From positions 1,271,001 through 1,335,000 of the forward strand of contig NZ_CP097329.1 in assembly GCF_030323025.1 (NCBI RefSeq): a stretch of DNA of 64,000 nucleotides, in the 5' to 3' direction. This DNA is from Pseudanabaena mucicola str. Chao 1806 (GTDB lineage Bacteria > Cyanobacteriota > Cyanobacteriia > Pseudanabaenales > Pseudanabaenaceae). The notes beneath the pieces were generated by a model. That model was not told the origin of the DNA, ran no database searches, and saw nothing but the letters and a program-made list of their open reading frames with translations. A program made the position numbers and the translations under genes. Positions 14,924 to 22,740 of this stretch are shown one piece after another (within the stretch, counting starts at the first letter, position 1; each line of letters opens with the position of its first letter).

Positions 14924-16288
14924 TTATGCTTCGCCTGTAATTGATAATCCTTCCACCCAAACTTGAGGTGCTACACCTGACGGGGTAATTTTTACATCTG
15001 GTTCGACATAAACGATCGCTTTGAGCAATGCCAAAATATCACCAGCGACGGTTGCGGACTCGATACTAATATGTACGCCTTTATTTATGAGCCAACCATC
15101 AAAGGGCAACGAAAAAGAACCCTGTGATGCTTGTACACCCGCATGGAGCGCTTGCAAATCATCAATCAAAATTACATTCTCAACTGTTGCCAAGTCATAG
15201 ACTTTCTCATTGCTAGAGTTAGCGGCTTCACTACGCTCAATATGAAAGAAGTTGGGACTGACTGAAACCTTTGCACCAACACTACCATTACCTGACGGCT
15301 GAGCATTTAAGCGTTTTGCAGTTACAGTACTATGCAGGAAGTTAGTCAAAACCCCATTCACAATTAAAGGAATGCGACGAGTAGGAGTTCCTTCACCGTC
15401 AAAAGTGGATGCGCCAATATTGCCTACATGGAGTTCATCATCGCTCACATTTAGAAGGGGTGAGGCAATCTGAGTACCAATCGATTCGGGTGTGGAGAGG
15501 CTATTTTTATCAAGAATACTTTGGGCATTGAAGAGACTAGAGAAAGCACTAATCAAGCTCAGAAATGCTTCGGGAGAAAATACGACTAAGTATTTGCCAG
15601 ATTTGATTTTGTCGTAATTCAAATGACTAATTGTTTTCTCAGCAGTTTCGTGAATACAACCCTTGACATCTAAACTCGCGAAGTCTCGGCTGACCCGATA
15701 GGCTCCAGCACTGCGAGGTTTTCTACCTTCCTCTTCAGTTTTAGTATACAGATAAATGGAGCTATAGGAGCTACTTTCATTTCGCATTGCGCCATCACTA
15801 TTGAGATAGAAGCGACTGAGATCCCGTTGAGAAAGTCCATTATAGGGAACCCCTGTGATCGCAGGATGTGCATCTAACAATTCCTTTTCAGCATCCAAAA
15901 GTGTCTCTACGAGTTGCTCGATCGCAGTTTGAGGTGCAGTCTGGGGTTCGCGTGCTGGGATATCAGCGATCGCTTCGGGACTAAAATCAGGAATATTTTC
16001 TTTAGCACCAAAGAGACTGGCTTCATGGGCGCTTTGGAGGGCAAGTTCTAAGCCAACGCGATCGATATTGGTGGTGGAAGTCACGCCGACAGTGCCCTCA
16101 TCATTCCAGACGCGCACGGTGATGCTAGCGCGATTGGATGCGGATACTTGTTTGGGTGCGCCACTATCGACTTCAGCGCTAGTTTCATCGACGATCGCGC
16201 CGTAAATATCAAATTTTTTAATTCCTAATTTGCTAGCGGTCTCTTTGGCATCGGAGACGATTTTTTCTACACTGAGCGCTGATGACAT
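14924..16288 (-). CDS. pmbA: TldD/PmbA family protein (TldE-like subunit)
   Basis: Resembles the TldE/PmbA half of the TldD-TldE heterodimeric protease, which cuts unfolded or peptide substrates in E. coli. Seen over 454 residues: the N-terminal DIYGAIVDETSAEVD; WNDEGTVGVTSTTNIDRVGLELAL; the DEGTPTRRIPLIVNGVLTNFLHST segment; and C-terminal FDGWLINKGVHISIESATVAGDILALL. It lacks the HExxxH zinc motif, as TldE proteins do, so it is probably the non-catalytic partner. No tldD is in this window. It borders the DGR island; the island starts just upstream of it. Confidence 0.88.
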   Translation of the reverse strand: MSSALSVEKIVSDAKETASKLGIKKFDIYGAIVDETSAEVDSGAPKQVSASNRASITVRVWNDEGTVGVTSTTNIDRVGLELALQSAHEASLFGAKENIPDFSPEAIADIPAREPQTAPQTAIEQLVETLLDAEKELLDAHPAITGVPYNGLSQRDLSRFYLNSDGAMRNESSSYSSIYLYTKTEEEGRKPRSAGAYRVSRDFASLDVKGCIHETAEKTISHLNYDKIKSGKYLVVFSPEAFLSLISAFSSLFNAQSILDKNSLSTPESIGTQIASPLLNVSDDELHVGNIGASTFDGEGTPTRRIPLIVNGVLTNFLHSTVTAKRLNAQPSGNGSVGAKVSVSPNFFHIERSEAANSSNEKVYDLATVENVILIDDLQALHAGVQASQGSFSLPFDGWLINKGVHISIESATVAGDILALLKAIVYVEPDVKITPSGVAPQVWVEGLSITGEA

Positions 16289-16524
16289 AAAACTTTGATT
16301 CGTTTTTAATTTTTCTAGTTAGCTATTAATCATCATAGCAATCTAAACCACAAAATCTAACAGGTGTAATTCAACTGAATTGAGTCAGCTAATCTTTCGG
16401 TTGCCCTACTAAAATAACTGACTCAGTTTGATATTTGGATGCTGTCGCCAACACCACAGGCACAAATCTGGACTGCCACCATGTACTCTCATTACATTCC
16501 CATGCAATGACTCTGACTATTGGT

Positions 16525-16663
16525 AGTCCTCACGCGAAAAGGCAAACTCACAAAACAACCCGAAAACCGATGTTGTTGTTCCTATTGTCTGCATTGTTCC
16601 TGTTGCGATTCGCCGAACGACAATTGTTCGCATTGTTGTTCCACGAGCCACCACGCAGGGCGC
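16525..16663 (-). other. DGR template repeat (TR)
   Basis: 139 bases, gap-free match to the variable repeat at 18262-18400 (constant offset 1737). In the core 16573-16640 there are 30 template adenines on the minus strand; 17 differ in VR. All 38 other core bases are identical. One further mismatch, at 16554 (minus-strand T against G in VR), lies in the 3' conserved part and resembles the IMH/IMH* difference known from other DGRs. TR begins on the last base of the RT stop codon. Read as protein it would give [19 protein letters not shown], rich in AAC/AAT Asn codons, the most diversifiable codons. Confidence 0.95.
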
Positions 16664-17742
16664 TATGGATTTGCACCTTCTCTAGGATCTTGAGTTCCCT
16701 CAAGATCACTAAATAACTGCTGCTGCAACTGCCATGTATTCCCATGTTGCAGATGTCCTTTCCATGCTTGGATTGAGCGCTGGATTTGGTCTGTATGCGT
16801 TTTACCTAAATTTATCTGTTTGCGTAGTCGGTGAAGACGTTTTCTGCCGCGCCTGATGTTCTTAGATATCACACGAATTTGATTGTTTACGATCCGAAAT
16901 CCCACAAAATTTATACCATGCTTGGTTTCAAAAATTTGTGTTTTGCCTGAATGCAGTTTTAACCTGATTTTTGCAAGATATACTTCTATCTCTAGCTTAG
17001 CGAATTTGAGAAAGTCAGGGTCATCGCAAAATATGGCGAAATCATCGACATAACGCACATATCGCTTAACTTGAAGTTGTTCTTTTACAAAATGGTCAAA
17101 TTCATTGAGATAGATATTTGCGAAAAATTGACTGGTGAGATTGCCGAGGGGTAAGCCTTTGCGATGGACAATTGGAGAGAATAGGTCATCACCTAAAAAG
17201 TATAGTAGAACTGGCTCTTGGGGATTGCTGCGATCAATAATTAGATCAATTAACCAGAGGGTTTTGGGGCATTTAATTTTGCGGCGAATGATTTGTTTGA
17301 GAATTGTGTGATCGATTGTCGGAAAATATTTTTTGATATCGCATTGCAGAACGTAACGACTAATCTGAGCAAATTTGATAAAGCGGCGCAGGGCTTTGTG
17401 CGTACCAAGTCCTCTACGGTTAGCATAGGAATCTGGGATAAAGGACTTCTCAAATATAGGAGCAATAACATTGCAGAGAGCGTGATGTACTACTCGATCT
17501 CTGTAAGGTGCAGCCGAAATTTGACGCGGTTTAGGATCGATGATTTGAAATACTTTGTAATCACTGGGGATGTAGGTTTGGGTTTCTAATTCTTTTTTGA
17601 GGATTATTATTTCATTTTCTAAGTTATAATTAAACTCTAAAATATTGGGACGAAATCGTTTACCTCTTTGGGCTTTTTGGGCAGCTAATATAATATTTTG
17701 ATAGCTAATAATTTCTCCCCAAAGATTGCCAATTCGTTTCAT
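16663..17742 (-). CDS. DGR reverse transcriptase
   Basis: Makes mutagenised cDNA from TR RNA for transfer into VR. Its 359 residues hold the RT palm motifs: [64 protein letters not shown], the fuller SQ motif typical of DGR RTs; the catalytic YVDD at 231-234; and GINFVGFRI. There is no maturase or endonuclease domain, which argues against a group II intron. The order on the minus strand is target, avd, RT, TR, and the RT stop codon touches TR. The frame is intact, so activity is possible. Confidence 0.95.
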
Positions 17743-17801
17743 AATAAATTACAAGCTAATTTTATAATTTGATTTTGTTACAACTAATCAAAATTTTTTA
17801 A

Positions 17802-18155
17802 TTACTTTTTGTTTTTTTGATATTTTAGCCAACCGCCTATTTCATTACCTATTTCTTGTAATTGGCTGTTAATATAAATATATCTTTCTGTTTTAATGAG
17901 ATTAAAATCTAATAATAATCTCGATTGATACCTGAGTATATCTAGCTTGGCATTGAGGGTTTCTAAAATAGATATTTTATCCTTTGTATATCTAGCAATA
18001 ATTAGAGATTCCATGATATCATAAAGATAGTTAGTAATTCTATCACCTATTCCAAATTTATGATGCTTAGGCATTCTATTAATAATCGGAATATACCACT
18101 TGATCAGATCATACATTTTTTGAATGACTGGTAAATCAACTGGCTGCGTACTCAT
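17802..18155 (-). CDS. avd: DGR accessory variability determinant (Avd, four-helix bundle)
   Basis: A 117-residue, almost all-helical basic protein of the bAvd/four-helix-bundle type. In the Bordetella phage DGR the pentameric Avd binds RT and template RNA and is required for cDNA synthesis. Seen: MYDLIKWYIPIINRMPKHHKFGIGDRI, then four amphipathic helices with ESLIIARYTKDK and LDILRYQSRLLLDFNLI. It sits 59 bases upstream of the RT gene and 129 bases downstream of the target gene on the same strand. A hairpin separates it from the target. Confidence 0.9.
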   Translation of the reverse strand: MSTQPVDLPVIQKMYDLIKWYIPIINRMPKHHKFGIGDRITNYLYDIMESLIIARYTKDKISILETLNAKLDILRYQSRLLLDFNLIKTERYIYINSQLQEIGNEIGGWLKYQKNKK

Positions 18156-18183
18156 TCTTATTTCGTATTTAGTTTCTAAAAAA

Positions 18184-18205
18184 TAAAAAAAGCGCCACAG
18201 GCGCT
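18184..18205 (-). terminator. Hairpin between DGR target and avd
   Basis: AGCGCC-TGT-GGCGCT followed by seven T on the minus strand: a rho-independent terminator placed about 56 bases past VR. It could limit read-through from the target gene into avd and RT, or mark the VR-side structure found in other DGRs. Confidence 0.75.
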
Positions 18206-18261
18206 AAAGAAAGTATATAGGAAAGAGGGTAAAGGAAAAAAGGACAAAAGTGTAAAGAAAA

Positions 18262-18400
18262 AGTCCTCACGCGAAAAGGCAAACTCACAACACAACCCGA
18301 AAACCGATGCTGCCGCTCCAATTGCCTGCATTGCACCTGCAGCGATACGCCGAACGACAAACGTCCGCATAGTTGGGCCACGAGCCACCACGCAGGGCGC
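18262..18400 (-). other. DGR variable repeat (VR)
   Basis: Copy of TR forming the 3' end of the target gene. It encodes residues from about 675 to 712, ALRGGSWPNYADVCRSAYR then CRCNAGNWSGSIGFRVVL, in place of the Asn-rich TR reading. Substitutions lie only at template adenines (17 of 30) within 18310-18377. The stop codon and the IMH-like end are at the low-coordinate side. Confidence 0.95.
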
Positions 18401-20423
18401 GTCTGTTTTGTTCGCCGCCAGTTAACCATGCAGAGCCATCATTGGGCGCACCGTTATAATTTTCATGCCAAACATCTTCACACCATTCCCAGACATTGCC
18501 ATGCATTTGATATAAGCCCCATGCATTCGGACTGAATTTAGCAAAATTGACATCAACTGTTTTCTGACGATATTCTCCTTTTAGTGCATCACCGTATGGA
18601 TAGTTACCATCATAGTTCACTAGTTCAGGTGTGATCGTTTCGCCAAAATGAAAATCTGTGGTAGTTCCAGCACGACAGGCATATTCCCATTCAGCTTCGC
18701 TGGGCAACCTCACTTTTTTATTGATTTTTTGAGAGAGCTTTTTACAAAACTCTGTAGCATCATCCCACGAAACGTTGATTACTGGTTGGTTTTCGCCTTG
18801 AAACTTTACATCAGAAAGATCCGATGGCTTTGTTCCCATCACTGCATACCATTGGGCATTGGTAATTGCATATTTTCCCATCCAAAATTCTTTTATACTC
18901 ACATCATGAATTGGCTGTTCACTGCTGTATTTATTACTTCCCATGCTAAATTTACCCGCAGGAATTTTTACTAGATCAAGCGTTACGCCATTGCCCAGAT
19001 TCTCACGGATATACTGCACTTTTCCCTTTTTGCGATCTAGCTCAATTTTTGTACCACCACCAATACCAAGAAAACCACTCTCTTTGACTAAACGAACTTT
19101 AACAAATTCAAATTCAAACTCAGGTTGAGCGGGTTTACTCTGTTGTTGATTTTTGACTCGTTCCGCTTCTTCCTGTAAACGTTTTAGCCGTTCTTCCTCC
19201 TCAGCCTGTTTCCTCAACCTCTCTAGGCGATCGCTTTCTTGTCTCTGCCTCTCCGCTTCAGCAACTTGTTGCAATCTCAGCCGTTCCTCCTCTTCTTGTT
19301 GAAGTCTCAGACGTGCGGCTTCAGCTTGTGCTTGTTCTTGTTGCAATCTCTGCTCATACTCAACTTGCTTATTCCCAATTATCCGATTCTTAATTTCTTG
19401 CAAATCGCTATCACGCAGACCTAAATGATTTTCATATTCTTGTAATTCTTCCTGCGTAACTTCACTGAAGGGAAACTCTTCTGCAATCATTTGAGTTAAT
19501 GCAGTTTCATATTTTCTAAGCTTTTTCGTATATTCCTGATATGGTCGTAAAACTTCATTAATGATCGCCTCAACATCAAGGGAATCAATTCCTTCCGACT
19601 TCTCAACCAATAGACTCCTAGCAATAGCTGAAATCCTGCCATTACTCCGCTTAACAACTTTCTCAACCTCCTTCCGAAACTTCAGCTTAGGATCGTCCTG
19701 CGCCGCCCTTGCAAGCACGATCCGATGTCCCTCCTTTTGTCCAAAAAACTTTGGCGACATACTGTTATTGACACTCTTAACCTTTCCCTCCACATATACA
19801 TGCAACTCATCCACCGACACATCCCCATCCTCATCACGATCCGCCGCCCCCGTCTTCAGCCCCTCCACAAGGAAATGCGTATAGAGCGACAACTCAAAAC
19901 CCTCTTGCTCAAACGCATATTGACTCGAATCAGCAGCCGTCAAAATTGCCCGACCTTCGCCGCCTAGCTTAATATCCACCGTCCCAATATCCTTCGCCTT
20001 CATCCCCTTAGGAAAAGCCCCACTATGGCAACAGTCCAAAATCGCCACTTGACGCTGTGACCTGCTCCTGTCCATTTCACTCTGCACATACACCGATGAC
20101 ACCGCAGTTGGCGGCAAAGCCTCCTTACTTGTCGAAGTCCCCGAAAAATAAAAATCGCGGCGATCATCGGTCACACCATGACCTGAGAAATAGAAAAGCA
20201 ACAGATCATCGGGTTTCCGATTGGCAAACAAATCATAGATCGCTGTCTCGATCGCCCCTTTCTCCGCATCCTTCAATACCACCACATCCCCATCCGCAAA
20301 GCTGCCAATCTCAGGATTTAGCAAAACTTGCCGCAAAGCATCGACATCCTTCACCGCACTGGGTAAAGGATCAAGCCCCTTAGTGTAATTGCTAATGCCA
20401 ATCAGCAGCGCGTATCGCCCCAT
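18285..20423 (-). CDS. DGR target: caspase-like protease with diversified FGE/C-type-lectin domain
   Basis: A 712-residue protein. Order: a peptidase C14 caspase/metacaspase domain (about 1-240) beginning MGRYALLIGISNY, with catalytic His82 in YFSGHG and Cys132 in LDCCHSG; a helical part; an Arg/Glu/Gln-rich coiled coil (about 355-435); and a formylglycine-generating-enzyme-like C-type-lectin fold (about 475-712) with KIPAGKFSMGS, WEYACRAGTTT, WGLYQMHGNVWEWCEDVW and ALRGGSW. The last 38 residues are the variable repeat, where DGRs place ligand-contacting positions. I infer a protease whose activation depends on what the diversified domain binds. The start overlaps no gene and lies 2 bases after the preceding stop, suggesting translational coupling. 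Confidence 0.93.
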   Translation of the reverse strand: MGRYALLIGISNYTKGLDPLPSAVKDVDALRQVLLNPEIGSFADGDVVVLKDAEKGAIETAIYDLFANRKPDDLLLFYFSGHGVTDDRRDFYFSGTSTSKEALPPTAVSSVYVQSEMDRSRSQRQVAILDCCHSGAFPKGMKAKDIGTVDIKLGGEGRAILTAADSSQYAFEQEGFELSLYTHFLVEGLKTGAADRDEDGDVSVDELHVYVEGKVKSVNNSMSPKFFGQKEGHRIVLARAAQDDPKLKFRKEVEKVVKRSNGRISAIARSLLVEKSEGIDSLDVEAIINEVLRPYQEYTKKLRKYETALTQMIAEEFPFSEVTQEELQEYENHLGLRDSDLQEIKNRIIGNKQVEYEQRLQQEQAQAEAARLRLQQEEEERLRLQQVAEAERQRQESDRLERLRKQAEEEERLKRLQEEAERVKNQQQSKPAQPEFEFEFVKVRLVKESGFLGIGGGTKIELDRKKGKVQYIRENLGNGVTLDLVKIPAGKFSMGSNKYSSEQPIHDVSIKEFWMGKYAITNAQWYAVMGTKPSDLSDVKFQGENQPVINVSWDDATEFCKKLSQKINKKVRLPSEAEWEYACRAGTTTDFHFGETITPELVNYDGNYPYGDALKGEYRQKTVDVNFAKFSPNAWGLYQMHGNVWEWCEDVWHENYNGAPNDGSAWLTGGEQNRRALRGGSWPNYADVCRSAYRCRCNAGNWSGSIGFRVVL

Positions 20424-20425
20424 GT

Positions 20426-20815
20426 TTAAGCCTTATGCTTTTCGATAAATTCGTTAATTTCATTGATCGCAAACTTGATTTCTTCTTGACTAGAAGCACT
20501 GACCTTCATTTTCACACCATTTACCTCAGCCTCTAGGGAAATAGGTTTATTGCCAAGGCGATCGCCCAAAAATTTTAATACCTTCAATGCATTAGGAACT
20601 GTAGCATCTGCCTTTAATAAATCTAATAGCGCCCCACCACTTTTGTTACCATCAGGCGGATTAGGATCGCGTAAGCGTGCAACTGATTCGATAGCAGAAT
20701 TAGCATTTAAGTCCTCTAACAAATTCGCCAACTCATCATCACGTTCCTCATTGGTCAAATCTGGATCGGTAAAGGTGATCGTCAAAGCGAACTGATTTGG
20801 ATTTTCAGAAGACAT
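20426..20815 (-). CDS. Small EACC1-like protein next to the caspase
   Basis: A 129-residue acidic protein. The layout resembles the effector-associated constant component 1 (EACC1) family described from bacterial conflict systems: an N-terminal strand plus TDPDLTNEERDDELANLLEDL, a Pro/Gly-rich centre RDPNPPDGNKSGGALLDLL, and a C-terminal KPISLEAEVNGVKMKVSASSQEE helix-strand unit. EACC1 genes typically precede caspase- or trypsin-type effectors, as here. Its stop is 2 bases before the caspase start, so both are probably one operon. The function is unknown; it may hold or present the effector. The family call is from pattern memory and is moderate. Confidence 0.6.
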   Translation of the reverse strand: MSSENPNQFALTITFTDPDLTNEERDDELANLLEDLNANSAIESVARLRDPNPPDGNKSGGALLDLLKADATVPNALKVLKFLGDRLGNKPISLEAEVNGVKMKVSASSQEEIKFAINEINEFIEKHKA

Positions 20816-20834
20816 AAACTTGAAAAATTTCTGT

Positions 20835-20859
20835 AACTTTTCGATATTGTATCGTATTG
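20835..20859 (-). promoter_or_regulatory. Operator-like palindrome / promoter upstream of the EACC1-like gene
   Basis: Contains CGATA-TTG-TATCG, a 13-base palindrome, and on the minus strand a TACAAT -10-like box, 20-45 bases before the ATG at 20815. An almost identical 25-base block lies at 21546-21571. Confidence 0.4.
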
Positions 20860-20939
20860 ATTAGTGGAAGTATAGTTGATGTCTATTAAGCGTAGCGACT
20901 TAGTGAAATATTTCGCACTTCACAATTTTACCCTTGGGT

Positions 20940-21419
20940 CTAATCTTCCCAAATTGTATAGACTTCTTCAAATACTTCAGCCCAGCTTAAGGACGTAGTT
21001 AGGGGCTTTTTGCCCATTTCATCCCGCGCATCCTGTTTAGCTGCGGCAAAACATTTATCCCAAATCGAAAGCAAAAAATCGCGATTGAGACTTGGCATTT
21101 CTTCTTGGCTATCTGCAATTTCGCGCCTTGCCGAACGAATCGAAATCATCCAGCTAGGGCTACGTTTTTCAGGTTGGTCTCGCCATTTAATGATATGCAG
21201 CATTAACCGCGTCAATTGGCTGCTGACAGCTTTCCTTTCCGATCGCCCCATTGATTCCGCTAAACTCTCTAAAACGTTATAGGCTTCTGTCATTTGTCCC
21301 TCCTGCAATAGTTCCTTGGCTTTGATCACTGCTAAATATGGTGATTGAAATACCAGTTGTTCCCATTGTTCGTAGAGCGATCGCGCCGACTTATCTACTT
21401 CTGTTAATATTTCTGTCAT
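20940..21419 (-). CDS. DUF29 family protein
   Basis: A 159-residue helical protein of the DUF29 family, abundant in cyanobacteria and without known activity. Seen: LYEQWEQLVFQSPYL at the N-terminus, LTRLMLHIIKWRDQPEKRSPSW (the most conserved family stretch), then SIRSARREI and FAAAKQDARDEMG. A second DUF29 gene occurs at 62089-62526, again beside mobile or defence-type genes. Upstream is a duplicate of the CGATA-TTG-TATCG block. Confidence 0.8.
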   Translation of the reverse strand: MTEILTEVDKSARSLYEQWEQLVFQSPYLAVIKAKELLQEGQMTEAYNVLESLAESMGRSERKAVSSQLTRLMLHIIKWRDQPEKRSPSWMISIRSARREIADSQEEMPSLNRDFLLSIWDKCFAAAKQDARDEMGKKPLTTSLSWAEVFEEVYTIWED

Positions 21420-21753: not shown

Positions 21754-22740
21754 ATGATCTTCATTAATCCTAAAATTGACTTTGCATTCAAAAAAATCTT
21801 CGGTTCCGAAGATAGCAAAGATATATTAATTAGCTTCCTTAATGCACTGATCTATGAAGCTCAACCTGTTATCCAAGACATAGAAATCATTAATCCCTAT
21901 GTTGCGCCAAAAATTCGGGGACTCAAATCAACCTATCTAGATATCAAAGCCAAAATCATTGAAGCAGAAACAGGCGAACAGCGTACTGTAATCATTGAGA
22001 TGCAAGTCTTAAACATTGAAGGATTTGAGAAAAGGATTTTATACAATGCTGCTAAATCCTATTCCACCCAACTTGGCTCTGGACATGACTACAGCCTCCT
22101 CAATCCTGTAATTGCCTTGACTATTACAGATTTTGTCATGTTTCCTGAGCTAGGTAATGTTATCTCCAAATTCATTTTAAAAGAAAAAGATTTCCTCATT
22201 GATTACCCCATCTATGACATCGAACTGATTTTTGTAGAACTGCCCAAATTTACAAAAGAGCTATCAGACTTAGTAACTATCATTGATAAATGGCTATATT
22301 TCATGAACAAAGCTCGCTACCTTGATGATGTCCCTGAAGTCATGGGTAACATTCCTGAAATTAGAAAGGCATTTTATATTGCCAATCAAGCTAACCTCAC
22401 CCTTGATGAGTTAGATGATCAAGAAAAAAGTGAGTTTTTCATTCAAGATCAGCGTGGAGCAGTTACAAAAGCGGTAAAAAAAGCTGTTAAGCAAGCTCTG
22501 CGTGAAGGTCGTGAGCAGGGTATTCGCCAAGGACTAGAGCAAGGACTAGAGCAAGGACTCGAACAAGGACTCGAACAAGGACTCGAACAAGGACTCGAAC
22601 AAGGACTACAGCAGGGATCAAGACAAAAAGCTCTTGAGATTGCCAAGAAAATGTTGAATTTGATGGACGATCGCACTATTTGTGATTTGACAGGCTTATC
22701 TTTAGATGAATTGACTGCACTAAAAATTTCAGAACAATAA
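21754..22740 (+). CDS. Rpn/PD-(D/E)XK nuclease family protein (PDDEXK_2)
   Basis: A 328-residue member of the Rpn-like group often annotated as a transposase. E. coli Rpn proteins are DNA endonucleases that raise recA-independent recombination. Seen: INPKIDFAFKKIFGSEDSKDILISFLNAL at the start; the catalytic-type pair LDIKAKI and VIIEMQV (D...ExQ); and KRILYNAAKSYSTQL. The C-terminal tail has a run of EQGL tetrapeptides encoded by a 12-base tandem repeat (about 22530-22613), then a short RHH-like helix. It lies 24 bases before the helicase gene on the same strand, so probably co-transcribed. Confidence 0.85.
   Translation: MIFINPKIDFAFKKIFGSEDSKDILISFLNALIYEAQPVIQDIEIINPYVAPKIRGLKSTYLDIKAKIIEAETGEQRTVIIEMQVLNIEGFEKRILYNAAKSYSTQLGSGHDYSLLNPVIALTITDFVMFPELGNVISKFILKEKDFLIDYPIYDIELIFVELPKFTKELSDLVTIIDKWLYFMNKARYLDDVPEVMGNIPEIRKAFYIANQANLTLDELDDQEKSEFFIQDQRGAVTKAVKKAVKQALREGREQGIRQGLEQGLEQGLEQGLEQGLEQGLEQGLQQGSRQKALEIAKKMLNLMDDRTICDLTGLSLDELTALKISEQ
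22530..22613 (+). repeat. 12-bp in-frame tandem repeat in the Rpn gene
   Basis: About seven units of CAAGGACTMGAR encode Gln-Gly-Leu-Glu. Whole-unit gains or losses keep the frame, so length variation between strains is expected. Confidence 0.85.

Follow-up and report, generated by a model that had tools for sequence, protein, structure and literature searches.

What might a bacterium gain from rewriting the binding end of a caspase-type protein? The question is raised by a diversity-generating retroelement (DGR) in a 64 000-nucleotide stretch of the genome of the freshwater cyanobacterium Pseudanabaena mucicola str. Chao 1806 (contig NZ_CP097329.1, positions 1,271,001 to 1,335,000; hereafter the window), in which an EACC1-like gene, the DGR target gene, Avd, the reverse transcriptase (RT) gene and the template repeat (TR) follow one another on the minus strand from position 20815 to 16525. 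Comparison with a near-identical strain indicated that the tip of the target was rewritten by the DGR and that the EACC1-caspase half was exchanged, since the variable repeat (VR) of the two strains differs at TR adenines only and the other half is covered by a sharp-edged divergent block. On balance, we lean towards reading the operon as a conflict module of the EACC1-caspase type whose sensor end is the DGR target. A further proposal is put forward as tentative, namely that within a single species this caspase receptor varies in two ways, by an RT-rewritten tip and by a recombined EACC1-caspase half on an identical scaffold.

A DGR with a caspase-lectin target

The TR (16525-16663, minus strand) and the VR (18262-18400, minus strand), which sits at the 3' end of the lectin-fold gene, were detected by near-repeat comparison and are 87% identical over 139 nt. 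Seventeen of their 18 mismatches fall at adenines of the TR, the remaining one being a T to G change close to the 3' end, and the hypergeometric P of this A-bias is 7.8e-9 for the 87 nt core and 1.3e-11 for all 139 nt. The RT (359 aa, 16663-17742, minus strand) has an open frame, a YVDD box and the LGNLTSQ motif typical of DGR RTs, matches RVT_1 (E 6e-24) with a score of 85.3 against a cut-off of 29.6, and is the one RT of the DGR kind at E <= 1e-20 in the genome. Avd (117 aa, 17802-18155, minus strand) likewise exceeded the cut-offs of NF033474 (130.4 versus 80) and bAvd (67 versus 40). As judged from their sequences, RT, Avd, target and TR constitute a real and intact DGR, confirming what a sequence-only reading of the window had described as a complete minus-strand element with all frames intact. 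The range given there, 16525-20815, was right but includes a fifth gene (20426-20815) that it did not name, and its interval 18310-18377 is the exact span of the A-substituted VR bases, of which 18377 is the first and 18310 the last. Its placing of the VR at the end of the target also held, but not as the last 38 codons, the repeat covering about the last 37 codons plus 3' untranslated region.

The target (712 aa, 18285-20423, minus strand) begins with a caspase domain (residues 3-219, 19767-20417, minus strand; Peptidase_C14 E 3.8e-18) carrying His82 and Cys132, which passes the NCBIfam model NF047832, 'caspase, EACC1-associated type', with 165.7 against a cut-off of 140. Secondary structure prediction places a long helix or coiled coil at residues 338-407 (19203-19412, minus strand), overlapping a family of imperfect 30 nt repeats (family D2), and residues 483-711 (18291-18977, minus strand) form an FGE/C-type-lectin domain (FGE-sulfatase, PF03781, E 1e-52). 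Domain scans and residues thus agree with the architecture proposed in the sequence-only reading, namely an N-terminal caspase with these two residues, a coiled coil and an FGE/C-type lectin. The lectin matched PvdO, TvpA (2y3c) and FGE both by sequence and by model, and the caspase part of the model matched MALT1 and a metacaspase. The whole-target model, built on an alignment of 25 of the 32 lectin-bearing loci of the named set described below, reached only intermediate confidence (pLDDT 73.7, pTM 0.47, with low values over part of the VR), which is too little for mapping the exposure of variable residues. Enzymatic activity of the FGE kind is unlikely for this lectin because, in an alignment with bacterial FGE, one of the two FGE cysteines, which we take to be the catalytic pair (PDB titles C336S, C341S), faces DGR-variable residues. 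When inactivation of the caspase in relatives was looked for, as the sequence-only reading had proposed, the dyad proved conserved, with the histidine present in 43 and the cysteine in all 46 of the aligned related caspases (a set that includes L130, the fragment of a broken gene), and dN/dS was 0.08-0.17 in the three caspase pairs computed.

Rewritten tip and exchanged half in a near-identical strain

Locus L139 (JADBWH010000036.1; loci of relatives are denoted by L and genomes by G), from a metagenome-assembled genome (MAG) of Pseudanabaena sp. M53BS1SP1A06MG, is 98-100% identical to the window in most 100 nt intervals across 12.4 kb, with a few intervals at 94-97% in the RT gene and its vicinity. 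Within the VR, 23 of the 33 shared TR-adenine sites differ between the two, as opposed to none of the 103 shared non-A sites (Fisher 1.5e-18); the TR differs at three of 139 sites and the linker and lectin preceding the VR at three of 878 nt. This comparison supports the earlier proposal that an intact caspase-type protease bears a binding tip which varies between strains, and the VR was found to be different, at shared TR adenines only, when its identity among strains was checked in this one MAG. Judging from the strain pair, the DGR of the window appears to have been recently active. When viral contigs were searched using the RT as query, two distant matches (36% and 25% identity) and no strain variants were obtained.

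A second difference between the strains lies further upstream in the operon. The block delimited by the first and last mismatches (19288-20731, minus strand) comprises most of the EACC1-like gene (from about codon 29), the caspase and part of the linker, and differs at 469 of 1431 aligned nt, or ∼33% (counted over 19294-20734), in comparison with 10 of 2082 nt in the upstream and 33 of 2609 nt in the downstream flank. Its edges are sharp: on the left the preceding 250 nt are identical, on the right the edge falls within the coiled-coil repeats, and both EACC1-caspase alleles are open across both edges. Between the two strains dN/dS is 0.13 for the caspase and 0.21 for EACC1, values that are rough as dS exceeds 1.

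Similar mosaics were seen among other relatives. In L137 and L138, EACC1 and caspase are 98% identical at the amino acid level and the lectins 57%. A clade of L061, L137 and L138, whose caspases are 95-98% identical, is rejected by the lectin data (p-AU 0.0075). The grouping of the window with L139, whose lectins are identical ahead of the VR, is mildly rejected by the caspase data (p-AU 0.033). In the EACC1 tree the window, on a long branch, and L139 join weakly (support 53/23), and the clade of L061, L137 and L138 is not rejected (p-AU 0.138). All of these groups were named after the identities had been seen, so that the p-values are optimistic. Judging from these sequence comparisons, recombination treats the lectin half as one module and the EACC1-caspase half as another, and the joint exchange of EACC1 with the caspase in one pair suggests that the two may be matched.

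Recurrence of the operon and of EACC1-type caspases

A phylum sample of 292 genomes was screened with NF047832 together with 14 control genomes. An EACC1-type caspase over the cut-off was present in 28 of the 292, and the controls gave no match of any kind. Three of the 46 loci compared (L054, L055 and L061) came from the RT search rather than the family search; the named set consists of the best 80 loci, all of them cyanobacterial, and is silent on other phyla. As L054/L140, L055/L141 and L097/L137 are taken to be the same records, counts over the 46 and the 80 loci partly overlap.

A lectin is present in 20 of the 46 caspase loci. Twenty of the 26 lectin-less caspases (all except L101, L110, L111, L125, L130 and L134) were scanned with Pfam, which revealed GUN4 in five, TPR in three, periplasmic-binding types in three and Clp_N in one, and no named domain beyond the caspase in the other eight. 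The other C-termini are thus binding-type modules in 12 of 20, and exchange among such types looks like input; we argue that the exchangeable C-terminus of EACC1-type caspases is the sensor. Among the best 80 loci, Avd and RT adjoin five of the 32 lectin-bearing but none of the 48 other EACC1-type caspases. As the neighbourhood covered extends no more than about 6 kb downstream, with several contigs ending early, these counts are lower bounds.

EACC1, caspase-lectin, Avd and RT occur together in the window and in L054, L055, L061, L139, L120, L124, L160 and L162. The sets of target and DGR that the sequence-only reading had suggested seeking in related cyanobacteria were thus found, the operon recurring in other Pseudanabaena and in Nostocales. 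TR/VR mismatches coincide with adenines of the TR at 16 of 17 positions in L054, 15 of 15 in L055, 15 of 16 in L061, 17 of 17 in L139, 12 of 14 in L162 and 10 of 11 in L124. In L120 the figure is 10 of 19 over 143 nt, those off adenine lying mostly at the repeat ends. Searches for a TR in L160 and L059, both of which have RT and Avd, found none.

The EACC1-like partner

The gene located 2 nt upstream of the target gene (20426-20815, minus strand) encodes a protein of 129 aa with a predicted soluble, ferredoxin-like fold, here named EACC1-like because it missed the PF19953 cut-off. Matches to PF19953 at E <= 0.01 were obtained for 11 of 38 relatives (best 6.7e-5), and a profile built from cyanobacterial EACC1 detected a homologue directly upstream of the caspase in 37 of the 46 loci and 56 of the best 80. 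The AF2 model (pLDDT 79.9), based on an alignment of 37 of the 56 EACC1 sequences, is ferredoxin-like and without a transmembrane helix, and has a strand plus a helix at the hydropathy maximum. Over 19 residues that maximum is 0.94, and it exceeds 1.6 in two of 37 homologues; a membrane role of EACC1 in the window is unsupported by either hydropathy or model. Fold searches with the model yielded weak matches of the ferredoxin-like kind: none of 935 Foldseek matches reached E <= 0.001, and the best Z score was 8.0, for VIA. The fold is too common for a function to be named from it. By gene order and family membership, the EACC1-like gene and the caspase gene make up a predicted two-gene conflict system.

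Relation to described systems

Statements on published work refer here to parts of the articles cited. Orthocaspase-bearing DGR variable proteins are known from cyanobacteria (Vallota-Eastman et al., 2020; PMC7517822) and share with the target a cyanobacterial DGR, a C-terminal lectin with the VR, a caspase-like N-terminus and remote lectin paralogues; in contrast to the window, the term EACC1 is absent there, Pseudanabaena has no occurrence in the main text and the parts covered describe no allele exchange between strains. 'System 4' of Kaur et al. (2020; PMC7159879) resembles the window in its 5' EACC1-type gene and its 3' gene for an N-terminal caspase with an exchangeable C-terminus. It is described as common among actinobacteria, with scattered occurrences in proteobacteria, and as having a single EACC1 transmembrane helix and C-termini interpreted as effectors, whereas the window system is cyanobacterial, has no predicted transmembrane helix and ends in a DGR-diversified lectin; the DGR passages of that paper concern VMAP ternary systems.

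The FGS domain has been treated as a hypermutated sensor (PMC8195603), and Clade 5 DGR antigen sensors have been described in Thiohalocapsa PB-PSB1 (Dore et al., 2024; PMC10907252), where, as at the window, DGR lectin sensors are tied to conflict-system proteases. That paper names domain shuffling plus hypermutation as two dimensions of variation. However, the shuffling in PB-PSB1 is shown between loci within a single genome and concerns ternary and STAND systems, whereas the window and its near-identical strain differ in one half of a gene pair at the same locus and the scanned neighbours lack MoxR and vWA. The Nostoc punctiforme DGR (mBio 2025; PMC12691664) is likewise cyanobacterial with adenine-specific variation, and was shown to be active in culture; its targets adjoin MoxR and vWA genes, and 'caspase' has no occurrence in the main text of the article. 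The DGR variable protein TvpA of Treponema denticola (PDB 2y3c), stated to carry a VR in PMC7159879, has a similar FGE-like lectin (E 1.3e-25), the solved chain matching the lectin part of the target only.

DGR-diversified caspase proteins and the idea of antigen sensors are thus already published (PMC7517822, PMC8195603, PMC10907252). Neither the pairing of EACC1 with a DGR nor a same-locus swap was found in the literature (open-licence PMC articles, without supplements); of 13 articles that contain the term EACC1, two use it in this sense. What is added here is the modular exchange and the comparison of the two strains. EACC1-caspase conflict pairs and DGR-diversified lectins, which had been predicted independently, are linked in one recurring operon. 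Because the two near-identical strains differ both in the tip and in the EACC1-caspase allele, sensor and output can be tested separately, offering a direct route to the question whether bacteria use DGRs for adaptive-like immunity. The system has the appearance of an immune sensor of bacteria that evolves at two levels; on the tentative reading given at the outset, it would loosely recall the way in which hypermutated variable regions are combined with exchangeable constant regions.

Proposed function and alternative explanations

Under the reading we favour, TR RNA would be copied by RT and Avd with errors at adenines and the mutated cDNA would replace the VR. The lectin tip, multimerized via the coiled coil, would then bind a ligand, the likeliest source of which is a phage or another cell, and binding would bring caspase domains together or free the caspase from EACC1, leading to a proteolysis that stops or kills the cell and protects the filament. 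Ligand, oligomerization, cellular place, role of EACC1, protease activity and cell death are all inferred. Several observations weigh against such a sensor module. In the stretch covered, 27 of the 32 lectin-bearing caspases of the best 80 loci lack RT plus Avd; no EACC1 was detected upstream in nine of the 46 loci and 24 of the best 80; and the PF19953 score in the window is 19.5 bits (E 0.001), below the gathering cut-off of 23.6. The window EACC1 is predicted to lack the transmembrane helix of the published description, and PADLOC finds nothing for EACC1 and assigns the target to a generic caspase model only. A single near-identical strain was found, L139, and it is represented by a MAG. 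Finally, L054 and L055 retain 90% identity in EACC1 and 91% in the lectin but only 68% (aa) in the caspase, which makes a strict match of EACC1 to its caspase doubtful.

Instead of sensing, the lectin tip could pick substrates, VR variants retuning caspase cleavage for regulation or development rather than defence, an alternative given for DGR kinases in PMC7517822. A C-terminal ligand-binding domain fused to an enzyme would suit this, as would the kinase-lectin gene L050 in the same genome, but random rewriting of protease specificity seems hard to keep safe and the exchange among periplasmic-binding, GUN4, TPR and lectin C-termini looks like input; we consider substrate choice unlikely. The same holds, more strongly, for self/non-self recognition among cyanobacterial strains, in which EACC1-caspase allele and variable tip would mark kin: at one locus, near-identical strains do have EACC1-caspase alleles that are 33% divergent and show low dN/dS, but this is one strain pair only, and phage-encoded inhibitors would also yield allele diversity. 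Highly improbable, in our view, is the direction published for EACC1-caspase pairs by Kaur et al. (PMC7159879), according to which EACC1 senses at the membrane and the caspase frees the C-terminal domain, the lectin being a variable effector. The low hydropathy maximum and the predicted ferredoxin-like fold of the window EACC1 speak against it, a hypermutated lectin tip suits a sensor better, and in later work from that group FGS is regarded as a sensor (PMC8195603).

The exchange itself might be an assembly artefact, as L139 is a MAG contig for which a mixed population could give a chimera, and a mosaic between L140 and L141 also involves one MAG (L140). This is quite improbable, given that EACC1 and target are open across both edges, that the flanks differ at so few positions and that a mosaic also exists between L137 and L138, which are not labelled as MAGs; a chimera would, moreover, still require that some member of the population combine these flanks with the alternative block.

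Other DGR, lectin and neighbouring genes

Five lectin genes elsewhere in the genome were aligned to the TR and are not regarded as its current targets, because their A-bias is moderate (P 1e-4 to 0.23), with about half of the mismatches off adenine in the second caspase-lectin pair. A second EACC1-like and caspase-lectin pair in this genome (G000:C1:3693896-3696130; L048:3897-6131), with no Avd or RT match in the 14 kb around it, has a 3' end resembling the TR, in which 17 of 33 mismatches are at TR adenines, 16 are off adenine and the last 11 nt are kept. In G001, an RT 90% identical to that of the window accompanies a target showing no caspase, and the flanking genes of the window were not found beside it; by sequence, DGRs of the genus also serve non-caspase N-termini. 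G020 has at least five EACC1-type caspase-lectin genes (L097, L109, L116, L126 and L133) and no DGR RT at E <= 1e-20; either this repertoire has no machinery to rewrite it, or the draft is incomplete. The DGR RT genes of two relatives, L041 (G019:C135) and L044 (G040:C31), contain one in-frame TGA each and are possibly decayed.

No MoxR or vWA gene was detected among the six proteins of 14924-21419 that were scanned, more distant genes having been inspected by eye only; the locus thus lacks the MoxR ATPase and vWA genes of a VMAP/MoxR-vWA ternary system. The operon is immediately preceded by a DUF29 gene (20940-21419), and a 158 aa gene of similar appearance, by eye, lies just upstream of a different target in L052 (L052:4071-4547), although the window DUF29 protein had no match in L052 at 1e-10. 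Further upstream, within the gene at 21754-22740, alignment of the window with L139 leaves 24 gap positions in the GLEQ-repeat stretch at 22525-22609, corresponding to a difference in repeat length.

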